From Ariolimax columbianus (taxonomy: Eukaryota; Mollusca; Gastropoda; Stylommatophora; Arionidae), in the NCBI GenBank assembly GCA_036924085.1, contig JAVGWX010000012.1:2349099-2413098 (forward strand): a stretch of DNA of 64,000 nt, written 5' to 3'. The position numbers and the translations under genes were made by a program. This document shows positions 14,757 to 22,139 of this stretch, piece after piece (position 1 is the first letter of the stretch; each line of letters opens with the position of its first letter). Below the pieces are notes generated by a model that ran no database searches, was not told the DNA's origin, and saw only the letters and a program-made list of their open reading frames with translations.

Positions 14757-15383
14757 GGGGTAGTTGTCTCGCCGCAGCGACTCAATTTCAACCAGTGTTC
14801 GTAAAGCGATCTCAGTCCCGCCAGGCGGAGCGATAGCGCGGGCTTGCGGAAAACGCTCGCCTGCCTTTCCCCGTAGTGCGAATTGGGTGCGGTTTGTGGT
14901 AGTGGCTCCTCCACCGAGGTGCCCTAGTCTGGTCCGTATCAGGAAACGTGGTCCGTCCGTGGTGATTTCTCTAAGGCTTATAGCAGAGCTCGACAGTACG
15001 TCTCGCTGGTGGTCCGACTCTCGCAAAGAGCTTGTGACCGGCAAATGGAAAGCAGGAATCGTTGCCTCGAGGCCCTGCCGTTCTCTCCCTACGGAGAAGG
15101 GCAGGCCAAATGGTGTCTCTAGTCCCAGTGAAATTCGTCGCCGAGGTCGTTGGGATCCGTTCTGCACAGAGCGCTGCCATCCCTCCTCGAGCGAGCCCGG
15201 TCGGTCGGTCGTCTGGTGCGTGTGGAAGGCCCCTGTCAGGCGGTCCTAGGTCGACGGAGTGAGGGACGGGTGGAACAAACCGTCCGTCCCGTCAGTCGGT
15301 CCCTGCGGCCGTCGTCCCAGCAAGGCTTTTTACACACCCTTCCTCCGCCGACCGGTGTGCGCAGTACGTACGTCTCCGACAGA
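14757..15383 (+). other. rRNA 5' external transcribed spacer (inferred)
   Basis: This GC-rich 627 bp lies directly upstream of the 18S start, inside the insertion. Its position makes it rDNA spacer; I cannot recognise the spacer sequence itself, since it evolves fast. The insertion begins at ggggtagttgtctcgcc. If that is the rRNA transcription start, the RNA intermediate was a complete Pol I transcript. Overlapping ORFs on both strands (14764-15249 and others) follow from high GC and are unlikely to be real. Confidence 0.65.
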
Positions 15384-16550
15384 TATCTGGTTGATCCTGC
15401 CAGTAGTCATATGCTTGTCTCAAAGATTAAGCCATGCATGTCTAAGTTCACACTGTCTCACGGTGAAACCGCGAATGGCTCATTAAATCAGTCGAGGTTC
15501 CTTAGATGACACGATCCTACTTGGATAACTGTGGCAATTCTAGAGCTAATACATGCTTACCAAGCTCCGACCCTCGCGGAAAGAGCGCTTTTATTAGTTC
15601 AAAACCAATCGTCGTTTCCCCTCGCGGGGTTGCGGCGTCCCCACTGGTGACTCTGGATAACTTTGTGCTGATCGCATGGCCTCATGTGCCGGCGACGCAT
15701 CTTTCAAATGTCTGCCCTATCAAATGTCGATGGTACGTGACATGCCTACCATGTTTGTAACGGGTAACGGGGAATCAGGGTTCGATTCCGGAGAGGGAGC
15801 ATGAGAAACGGCTACCACATCCAAGGAAGGCAGCAGGCGCGCAACTTACCCACTCCCGGCACGGGGAGGTAGTGACGAAAAATAACAATACGGGACTCTT
15901 TCGAGGCCCCGTAATTGGAATGAGTACACTTTAAACCCTTTAACGAGGATCTATTGGAGGGCAAGTCTGGTGCCAGCAGCCGCGGTAATTCCAGCTCCAA
16001 TAGCGTATATTAAAGTTGTTGCAGTTAAAAAGCTCGTAGTTGGATCTCAGGCGCAGGCGGGCGGTCCGGCTCGCGCCGGTTCACTGCCCGTTGTCTCCTG
16101 CCCTACCGTCTGCCGGCTCTCTCCCACGGGTGCTCTTCGCTGAGCGTCCTGGGTGGCCGGCGCGTTTACTTTGAAAAAATTAGAGTGTTCAAAGCAGGCC
16201 TCGGCTGCCTGAATAATGGTGCATGGAATAATGGAATAGGACCTCGGTTCTATTTTGTTGGTTTTCGGAACTGGAGGTAATGATTAACAGGGACAAACGG
16301 GGGCATTCGTATTGCGGCGTTAGAGGTTAAATTCTTGGATCGCCGCAAGACGAGCTACTGCGAAAGCATTTGTCAAGAATGTTTTCATTAATCAAGAACG
16401 AAAGTCAGAGGCGCGAAGACGATCAGATACCGTCGTAGTTCTGACCATAAACGATGCCGACTAGCGATCCGCAGGAGTTGCTTCGATGACTCTGCGGGCA
16501 GCTTCCGGGAAACCAAAGTGTTTGGGTTCCGGGGGAAGTATGGTTGCAAA

Positions 16551-16599
<49 letters not shown>

Positions 16600-16622
16600 G
16601 CGGCTTAATTTGACTCAACACG
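15384..16622 (+). rRNA. 18S rRNA, 5' portion only (~1240 of ~1800 nt)
   Basis: Starts with tatctggttgatcctgcc and contains the universal landmarks: gtgccagcagccgcggtaa (about 15970), cgaaagcatttgtcaagaa (about 16360), the gcgaagacgatcagatacc block (about 16414), and aaaggaattgacggaaggg (16561). Identity to 18S stops at gactcaacacgg (16612-16623), where a normal gene continues gaaaactcacc. The 3' third is missing. No decay is obvious by eye, so the copy is recent. It sits inside a retrotransposed unit and is not a functional rDNA locus. Confidence 0.97.
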
Positions 16623-21200: not shown

Positions 21201-22109
21201 GTGGTAGAAAATATACCAGGTATTGCAAACAAAAACTGCCAGAGTGAGAAAGAAAGGAGAGACACTACCCTAAGCTTCATAACGAAAAGCTACCCAAGCA
21301 TGGACTGGACCCATGCATACACCGACGGTTCTGTAACAAACACTACACAGAACGGAGGGGCAGGAGCATTCCTGAACCTACCAAATGGCAGAAAAATAAC
21401 ACTGTCATTCGCTACTGGTAAGTACACAAGCAATTTCAGAGCAGAGGCAGAGGCACTGAGGGCGGCAGTGGAAGAAATGGTAACACACAGTGAAAATGAG
21501 AGCCATATAGTCTTGCTGACAGATGCTCTCGAAGTAGTCACAGCGCTAAAAAGCCAGAAGAACACTGAGCTTAATGACTTAAGAGCAGCACTCTGCAAAC
21601 TGTGCCAGCAGTCCGCACCAAAAAGGGTGGTGGTACAGTGGGTTCCGTCACACTGCAACATCCTAGGCAACGAGGAGGCAGACAGACTGGCAAAAGAAGG
21701 TGCAAGGCTACCACAAACAGATACCAGTATGACGTACGAAGAGTCAAAACGGCTTATCAAAGCCAGATACATGTCCAAATGGGAAACCGAACATACTGGT
21801 TACACCAAAAACGATGCCTATTACCAGTTGAACCGAAGAGAGCAGGTCGTTGTCTTCAGACTTCGCACTGGCCACAACAGACTGAGGTACCACCTATTCA
21901 ACAAACTGAAGATAGGGTGTACCGACGAATGCCCGTGCGGTACTGGTAAAATGACCACTGAACATCTGCTGCAGAACTGCCCGACATACGAGGATCAGAG
22001 AGAGCAGATGTGGCCATTGCCAGTGGAACTGCAAGACAAGCTCTATGGTAGTGGCGAGAGTCTCAGGATGACCGCCGCTTTTTTCGAGAAAATAATGGTT
22101 ACTGTCTGA
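18201..22109 (+). CDS. Non-LTR retrotransposon polyprotein: AP endonuclease, RT, RNase H
   Basis: Uninterrupted 1302-aa ORF. Residues about 75-290 form an AP-like endonuclease: LQWNAEGVINKKL, CIQETHL, VVGDFNSHSERWGYSDT, and catalytic GSDHRPI. RT is about 520-830: SPGKDGITNEML, GYRPISLLSCVGKLMERM, QAGFRQHRSTEDQ, DLEKAFDKVW, QGVPQGGVLSPTLF and the active site FADDLAMW. RNase H is about 1035-1160: YTDGS, RAEAEALRAA, LLTDALEV, WVPSHCNILGNEEADRLAK, with all acidic residues present. The end carries a CPCGTG...TEHLLQNCP zinc-binding motif. This order fits the I/R1/LOA/Tad group; the exact clade needs a tree. The first ATG is used but lies some 70 residues before the endonuclease, so the true start may be downstream. 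The intact ORF implies recent activity. The ORF ends 30 bp before the right target duplication. Confidence 0.95.
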   Translation: MHGAASLTKQCNVNHSMMAVQPIRKTYGAHPEETRQAAIAPGLTPRRGPPLTTGGHLPMCRGVKAHGYGETSIGQNFKTLRILQWNAEGVINKKLSLTHHLHDGKIDVACIQETHLNNNHKFSIRGYQTFRLDREGHKGGVLILTRNSIPSSAVPVNHTGQAEIVGVDIMAQETKLRIFNLYGPPNRDLSLSSMEVRDSNCIVVGDFNSHSERWGYSDTDSRGDEVEDWEIDANLSLINRPEDSPSFYSRTWHTTSTPDLAFSTQDIHYKIDRQVLNQLAGSDHRPIRLTIDMEVGPQETKPLPRWNYKRVDWDRFAILTDGLCETINTRNTKMKPMVESLSKAIMQAATETIPRGARKNYKPYWNDELQKVEDAVTNARNVAEREKSMEANIALKAATAKYKHTLKQTARESWKNKTESLNLDKDGNKLWKLVRAMNDETPSNKQITIKQGENLITGKKAANAFVDHYARANHIEVPADKHTDISEELKRHENINTAPEEHMMAKLTMREMEEAMRTLKKRKSPGKDGITNEMLMGLGQTAKKKLLSVLNQSWKRGIVAQAWKDAILVPVPKTGKDKTDPNGYRPISLLSCVGKLMERMINTRLMWHLEEKQILIPQQAGFRQHRSTEDQVILIAQEIEDAYQAQKHTVAVWVDLEKAFDKVWKDGLRVKLRRSDVCGKMYKWINHYLKQRTARVQVQGQMSKKVTLEQGVPQGGVLSPTLFLVYINDITENIPRRVHSSMFADDLAMWTSEKNLTIARNRMQTALTSLEEWANSWLVKINEEKTTCTIFSLSLKPQSTKLSLNGKILQPNDNPTYLGVTFDRRMTWKSQIERNRMKARERMAIMRKLAGTSWGADESILKKLYTGRVRPVLEYGIAAWTTAAKANFDKVNKLQNQAMRIITGGMKSTPIVELEKITRLQSMTDRRDCRAQLQSEKLRRLTDHPMYQRLNNLGNGKLKRRNFAEIAKAKMHEDPINALTTPKPITTVRKPTWRQDIFPEVVENIPGIANKNCQSEKERRDTTLSFITKSYPSMDWTHAYTDGSVTNTTQNGGAGAFLNLPNGRKITLSFATGKYTSNFRAEAEALRAAVEEMVTHSENESHIVLLTDALEVVTALKSQKNTELNDLRAALCKLCQQSAPKRVVVQWVPSHCNILGNEEADRLAKEGARLPQTDTSMTYEESKRLIKARYMSKWETEHTGYTKNDAYYQLNRREQVVVFRLRTGHNRLRYHLFNKLKIGCTDECPCGTGKMTTEHLLQNCPTYEDQREQMWPLPVELQDKLYGSGESLRMTAAFFEKIMVTV

Positions 22110-22118
22110 CTGTGTACG

Positions 22119-22139
22119 CAGAAGAAGAAGAAGAAGAAG
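22119..22139 (+). repeat. (AAG)n 3' tail
   Basis: After the stop and a very short 3' UTR (ctgtgtacgc) the element ends in about seven gaa/aag triplets and then the right target duplication. A simple triplet tail in place of poly(A) is common in I- and R1-group elements and fixes the 3' end. Confidence 0.93.

Follow-up and report, generated by a model that had tools for sequence, protein, structure and literature searches.

A retrotransposon family with a pre-rRNA leader in Ariolimax columbianus, probably resident in 18S rRNA genes

The 64,000-nt stretch of DNA from the gastropod Ariolimax columbianus analysed here (the window; positions 2349099–2413098 on contig C12 of an assembly of 2.294 Gb in 401 contigs) carries a long interspersed nuclear element (LINE) preceded by the 5' external transcribed spacer (ETS) and a large part of 18S ribosomal RNA (rRNA). 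The locus raises the question of how a retrotransposon comes to carry the beginning of the rRNA precursor (pre-rRNA) with it into ordinary genomic sites. The same composite was found in a dispersed family with thousands of junction sites. We regard it as probable that this LINE resides in 18S genes, is read through from the pre-rRNA start and is retrotransposed elsewhere from the resulting RNA.

Structure of the insertion and its dispersed copies

The insertion in the window is flanked by the direct repeat GATTCCTCTGATCATCT (14740–14756 and 22139–22155, 17/17 identical); the initial annotation, made from the letters of the window, had recognized a single bracketing target site duplication (TSD) correctly and had given its length as 16. 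ATCT stands directly before GGGG in 17 of 21 copies, the window counted, and is therefore taken as the element's own 5' end, which probably lies at 14753; the true TSD of the window is then 13 bp, ATCT being common to element and target site by microhomology. The ETS, the 18S sequence, the leader repeats, the intact 1302-aa open reading frame (ORF) with endonuclease (EN), reverse transcriptase (RT) and RNase H, and the (AAG)n tail were all recovered as annotated, from Rfam matches, ORF domains and repeat comparison. The Rfam model SSU_rRNA_eukarya (RF01960) matched 15387–16531 (946.6 bits) and 16533–16560, and the 18S sequence was extended by eye from 16560 to 16623. The parts are as follows:

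14740–14752, + strand: 5' TSD, 13 bp, from the 17/17 repeat; the ATCT after it recurs at the 3' copy
14753–15386, + strand: 5' ETS, with a common 5' start in 20/20 copies chosen by similarity and 7/8 copies from the junction list
14753, + strand: putative +1 of the pre-rRNA (A of ATCTGGGG), placed by the common 5' end
15387–16623, + strand: first 1,237 nt of 18S rRNA, ending in ...GACTCAACACGG; Rfam to 16560, the remainder by eye
16624–16754, + strand: leader unit 1, where the element proper starts (CCAACACTG...); strong RNA fold
16755–16935, + strand: leader unit 2, a degenerate 18S-derived segment of ~64 nt followed by a relative of unit 1 (repeat comparison)
16936–17249, + strand: leader unit 3, a second degenerate 18S-derived segment with the following sequence (repeat comparison)
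17250–17680, + strand: degenerate 28S 3'-terminal domain (RF02543, model positions 3007–3399 of 3401, at 17276–17678); its start upstream of 17276 is our assumption, placed by eye against a generic 28S sequence
18201–22109, + strand: 1302-aa ORF with APE endonuclease (aa 83–284), RT (aa 575–822) and RNase H (aa 1039–1168)
22110–22138, + strand: short 3' untranslated region (UTR) and (AAG)n tail
22139–22151, + strand: 3' TSD, 13 bp (17 bp with ATCT), from the 17/17 repeat

Twice in the leader, the ~64 nt of 18S that immediately precede the junction recur in degenerate form, and a relative of unit 1 follows each time. Judged by eye, the 18S position at which these segments stop is that of the junction, suggesting a long-standing link of the element to this site. 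The RNA of unit 1 folds strongly (-54.6 kcal/mol, z -4.4, 0/200 shuffles), and units 2 and 3 are without a strong fold (z -0.98 and 0.20). The predicted folds at the junction formed one long hairpin, and no hepatitis delta virus (HDV)-like ribozyme of the kind found in R2-type processing was matched by Rfam at E <= 0.1 within 14600–22200; this candidate was rejected, and ribozymes of other kinds may exist. The block resembling the 3' end of 28S (17276–17678; 63.9 bits, E 1.2e-12) had been overlooked in the initial annotation. Over 17250–17680 it is 77% alike between the two subfamilies described below; processing, translation or the status of a relic are candidates for its role.

The 18S/element junction was searched for throughout the assembly with a 27-nt pattern (<=1 mismatch), which gave 2,879 forward and 2,934 reverse sites (5,813 together; reversed-pattern control, 0). 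Copies were read in two samples. For the first, the window sequence 15000–15500 was used as the query; from 1,655 loose first-look candidates 40, with the window among them, were scored (99–100% identity, spread over many contigs), and 20 of the 39 other places were read, each as a 9.8-kb stretch. All 20 copies started with the GGGGTAG of the window. Fifteen were autonomous and 98.2–99.7% identical to the window over the full length, and the ORF was open throughout in 8 of 16 autonomous copies, the window counted. The remaining five (L009, L013, L021, L023 and L024) were ORF-less, ~3.5 kb long, and had the ETS, 18S and first leader unit in common with the autonomous ones. A clean TSD of 10–14 bp directly after (AAG)n was present at 15 of the 20 loci. 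The second sample comprised eight of the first nine sites on the junction list (C1:3738510 was passed over); seven had the full leader from the same ETS start, and L056 was truncated within 18S.

Overall, the start base was fixed in 27 of the 28 copies read at the junction. None of the 28 had recognizable native rDNA upstream, and in L019 and L024 an extra 18S fragment was found in front (65 bp and at least 753 bp, respectively), ending at the same base. In both the autonomous L019 and the ORF-less L024, the end of this fragment, CCCTTTAAC (window 15944), is joined to the start base. With 5,813 junction sites and no native-rDNA flank in 28 copies, the family is not mostly confined to rDNA.

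Several early expectations were borne out by these data. A single integration is indicated by one TSD around ETS, 18S and element, both for the window and for 15 of the 20 copies chosen by similarity, and the transfer of a whole RNA to other places by the fixed ETS base of the copies. As to the further copies that the annotation proposed to search for, the 18S/element junction was counted at 5,813 sites, making the family a source of thousands of dispersed 18S pseudogenes. It had also been reasoned that junctions differing in every dispersed copy would favour one-off template switching; one junction is common to the 5,813 sites, and a one-off switch is rejected for the window locus.

Origin of the ETS and 18S leader

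Among the 16 autonomous copies (window counted), the 18S part had 24 variable sites, all singletons, and the ETS had nine, six of them singletons. The leader had 47, with 23 singletons and 24 shared, and most other parts of the body were also rich in shared variable sites. When the query region was excluded, shared variants occupied 2 of 1,370 columns in ETS plus 18S vs. 140 of 5,489 in the body (Fisher p 1.6e-11), and one of these two was the boundary base 14753. The ratio of shared to singleton sites was 2:26 vs. 140:142, correspondingly (p 5e-6). In Mantel tests, leader and ORF distances were correlated (r 0.73, p 0.0002; 0.88 between the ORF halves), and distances in ETS plus 18S were correlated neither with the leader (r 0.07, p 0.30) nor with the ORF (r 0.22, p 0.14). 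ETS variants were scattered over body clades: at position 14800, the trio of the window, L015 and L027 has C, G and G, and a second close trio (L011, L019 and L022) likewise has C, G and G.

The consensuses of the two subfamilies, autonomous and ORF-less, were identical at 633/633 ETS positions (plus one indel) and at 1237/1237 18S positions. Past 16623 their identity was 93, 89, 82, 80, 77 and 82%, block by block, so that the two bodies differ by 7–23% from the junction onward. In the seven list copies (L056 dropped), differences from the window-family consensus amounted to 246/4,337 (5.7%) in the ETS and 74/8,521 (0.87%) in 18S; the p value of this 6.5-fold difference, 1.5e-57, is too small, since the copies have a common history. 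Shared variants occurred in 33 of 629 ETS columns vs. 2 of 1,237 in 18S. An 18S pseudogene borne by the element would not stay conserved relative to the ETS; the data therefore support working rDNA under rRNA selection, sampled repeatedly over time, as the source of both parts, and they support the absence of vertical inheritance of ETS and 18S together with the element.

rRNA chimeras and competing explanations

Loci carrying rRNA beyond the junction were searched for with an 18S piece lying just downstream of it. This gave 377 loose first-look candidates, of which 40 were scored (all 98%) and 21 were read, L029 at length and 20 as 701-nt stretches. All 21 were chimeric, with 18S or a longer pre-rRNA joined to element sequence or to a second leader. 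In L036, L044 and L045 the partner at the junction was a second ETS leader, and the sequence read stops within it. The sequences of L031 and L040 continue into the internal transcribed spacer 1 (ITS1) within their 701-nt stretches, and L052, of which a longer stretch was read, has its break within ITS1. L050 contains a complete 18S, ITS1 and part of 5.8S, followed by the 18S of an 18S-element sequence, and L035 is a patchwork of 18S, the 18S end with the ITS1 start, and the element. A generic 28S query was also used, and the best 40 of 331 candidates were scored (65 matches); in the best match, L051, a piece of 28S is joined to the element at ~16622, and the sequence stops short of the ETS. 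Directly upstream of this chimera (L051:6366-6436) lies an inverted element 3' end, as in twin-priming inversions.

Thus, 22 of the 22 loci read with rRNA beyond the junction were chimeras, and in 14 of them the element-side break fell between ~16600 and 16930, in or near the strongly folded unit 1. On the rRNA side, 9 of the 21 loci found with the 18S piece break at TTCGCC or one base further in 18S; a discrete 18S fragment end, a nuclease-sensitive loop, the insertion site of another element or one copied event are candidates for this common break. L029, L036, L044, L045 and L049 have 18S fused directly to the first base of a further leader. They look as though RT had reached the 5' terminus of its RNA and then moved to a new template; an element nested within 18S would give identical joins by read-through. 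Contiguous 18S of 4, 16, 22 and ~800 nt is retained upstream of the junction before the break in L035, L046, L049 and L050, respectively. In L029, one 12-bp TSD surrounds the double leader, with the added RNA in sense orientation at the 5' end of the LINE. In the three chimeras read to the 5' end (L029, L050 and L052) the copy starts at the same base again. The chimeras are best explained by template switching of RT onto 18S, pre-rRNA or 28S, and the presence of 18S, ITS1, 5.8S and 28S among the partners suggests that pre-rRNA was present at reverse transcription.

In the mechanism we propose, the family would sit, in at least some copies, in 18S genes directly after GACTCAACACGG. The rRNA promoter would give a single read-through RNA of ETS, 18S and element from the pre-rRNA start, to which the fixed 5' end points, and the element protein would use this RNA as template for target-primed reverse transcription at ordinary genomic sites, as the TSDs and the tail imply. 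Reverse transcription would usually reach the very 5' end of the RNA. The outcome would be the dispersed copies observed, with ETS plus 18S leader, TSDs of 10–14 bp and an (AAG)n tail, and the ORF-less subfamily of ~3.5 kb would have spread, as observed, with the same leader. RT may also switch from its template to 18S, pre-rRNA or 28S RNA, frequently while copying the structured leader or on reaching the RNA 5' end. Thousands of dispersed rRNA pseudogenes would be the net product.

The step in question is residence in 18S genes, which had been part of the initial annotation. It is suggested by the single 18S junction, by its occurrence in two diverged subfamilies, by the leader relics and by the chimeras with contiguous 18S. 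A fixed 18S junction is observed; an 18S-resident copy was not seen among the loci read. Several points weigh against residence and read-through. No native rDNA unit and no copy inside an 18S gene was present among the loci read, and two patterns of different geometry that would place 18S after the element 3' end had 0 matches in the assembly. With regard to insertion at one rRNA-gene site, as in rDNA-specific R elements, the fixed 18S junction was observed on the 5' side, and these patterns detected no 18S sequence on the 3' side. The rDNA array is seemingly absent from the assembly, judging from the generic 28S query, for which no match better than the chimera L051 was listed among the best 40 of 331 candidates; the missing resident copy is thus a weak negative, and native rDNA units could be among candidates outside those scored or read. 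Position 14753 is a presumed start of RNA polymerase I (Pol I), deduced from the common 5' end. TSDs are not uniform: L018 has no clear one, L014 and L017 have repeats only past 3' extensions, L019 and L024 have none adjoining their 5' ends, and the flanks of L050 match over 8 bases only, ATCT included. The 20 copies chosen by similarity were picked with window 15000–15500, which biases the ETS result; this bias spares 15501–16623, the list copies and the identity step at the junction. Other copies, at the loci found with the 18S and 28S queries, have varied, template-switch-like junctions, and some of these recur: TTCGCC is followed directly by the start base in L029, L044, L045 and L049, and one junction is common to L038 and L042. 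Not every chimera is then an independent event, hot spots or re-mobilized chimeras exist, and a repeated junction need not mean rDNA residence.

A competing explanation is trans template switching alone, in which the element would have its own promoter elsewhere, and RT would jump at ~16622 onto a hot spot in 18S or pre-rRNA and run to the pre-rRNA start, with no residence in rDNA. Chimeras with 18S, pre-rRNA and 28S are indeed common here, breaks at ~16622 are found in L041 and L051, and both the frequent TTCGCC end point and the recurring whole junctions indicate that discrete RNA ends can be hot spots; the failure to find a resident copy fits as well. However, the same two-sided junction would have to arise 5,813 times and in two diverged subfamilies, the four chimeras retaining contiguous 18S would need two switches each, and the leader relics end at the same position. 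We consider this explanation unlikely. Stable capture, in which ETS and 18S were once acquired as the 5' UTR of the element and vertically carried since, agrees with a constant junction in thousands of copies, but shared variants nearly absent in 18S and common in the body, the lack of Mantel correlation with the leader, the identity step between the subfamilies and the conservation of 18S relative to ETS contradict it; only constant conversion from rDNA could rescue it, and we rejected it as very improbable. Finally, rDNA is often misassembled, which would speak for an assembly or collapsed-rDNA artefact. Chance and misassembly are excluded as the source of the window structure by the 5,813 junctions vs. 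0 in the control and by the individual TSDs present at 15 of the 20 loci chosen by similarity, and with thousands of sites on both strands an artefact has practically no likelihood.

A further-reaching reading concerns the regular mobile RNA, which may be the full-length Pol I read-through transcript. The 18S genes would then serve as promoter and nursery, from which thousands of copies would depart still joined to the 5' part of the pre-rRNA, the leaders would serve as a dated record, and RT would routinely copy unprocessed pre-rRNA; we see the chances of this extended view as evenly balanced.

Known elements, implications and neighbouring sequences

By its predicted domain content (APE endonuclease, RT and C-terminal RNase H, as in I-group non-long terminal repeat (non-LTR) retrotransposons of I/Ingi/Nimb-like type), the element is filed as an EN-RT-RNase H LINE. 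Among the 120 protein matches listed of 286, those named by species came from the gastropods Littorina saxatilis and Batillaria attramentaria, the best with 51% identity over 70% and 49% over 84% of the query; the other named ones bore only domain names, and the closest full-length matches (65–67%) were unnamed. According to the parts available of three papers (PMC5035012, PMC2718515, PMC3774820), R-type elements are tied to one rRNA-gene site, R2 is co-transcribed with 28S, R8 of Hydra resides in 18S genes, and R1 occurs also outside 28S; R2 has internally deleted relatives (PMC3414825, available in part). A putative association with one rRNA-gene site and a putative rDNA read-through would be features in common with R1, R2, R8 and R9 as far as these sources go. 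In contrast to the R2/R8 clade with its restriction-like endonuclease, the family has an APE-type endonuclease and RNase H, and unlike R-type elements it has thousands of dispersed junctions and an ETS plus 18S leader from a fixed base in 27 of 28 copies.

Chimeras of LINE-1 with cellular RNA, including 28S/L1 chimeras at 18 loci with a median of 269 nt (PMC13174262, available in part), likewise carry a second RNA in sense orientation at the 5' end, the whole being enclosed by one TSD. They differ from the present family, in which one junction occurs 5,813 times, the leader extends over 1.87 kb from the ETS start, and ITS1 and 5.8S are among the chimera partners; in the text available of that paper '18S' occurs 0 times. 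Ingi elements of the I superfamily, which have a similar EN-RT-RNase H ORF, are abundant in several gastropods (PMC11203168, available in part); the accessible text of that source contains '18S' 0 times, 'ribosomal' 0 times and 'rRNA' 1 time. No report of an ETS- and 18S-led LINE family was found in the literature searched, of which coverage was partial. Relatives in viral contigs were also looked for; three stretches matched a pattern, and none was confirmed.

How rDNA-resident retrotransposons are expressed, and whether they can escape from rDNA, has been asked for a long time. In this family, the RNA used for insertion, its start included, is apparently preserved exactly at thousands of sites, so that transcript ends, template switching and past rDNA variants may be read from one genome. 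The family also generates 18S, ITS and 28S pseudogenes on a large scale, with consequences for rRNA-based species identification and for rDNA assembly. If the read-through is true, the uncapped Pol I RNA would have to be translated independently of a cap, in which the 18S- and 28S-like leader may assist, and the dispersed leaders would date past rDNA haplotypes.

Apart from the chimeras, short partial 28S matches (~32–58 nt) were found at C7:48610821-48611716, C14:13844100-13844618 and C19:48036841-48037126. They cover mostly the first half of the query, near the R2-site region, and recur in tandem, with a spacing of ~50 bp at C7; they may represent a satellite derived from 28S or belong to another rDNA element. 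In the window itself, minisatellites are abundant (84 Tandem Repeats Finder rows, e.g., 1–6241, 11542–13169 and 50148–53829). A 317-aa ORF with an APE-type endonuclease domain at 59457–60410 (+ strand) is probably a fragment of another LINE.

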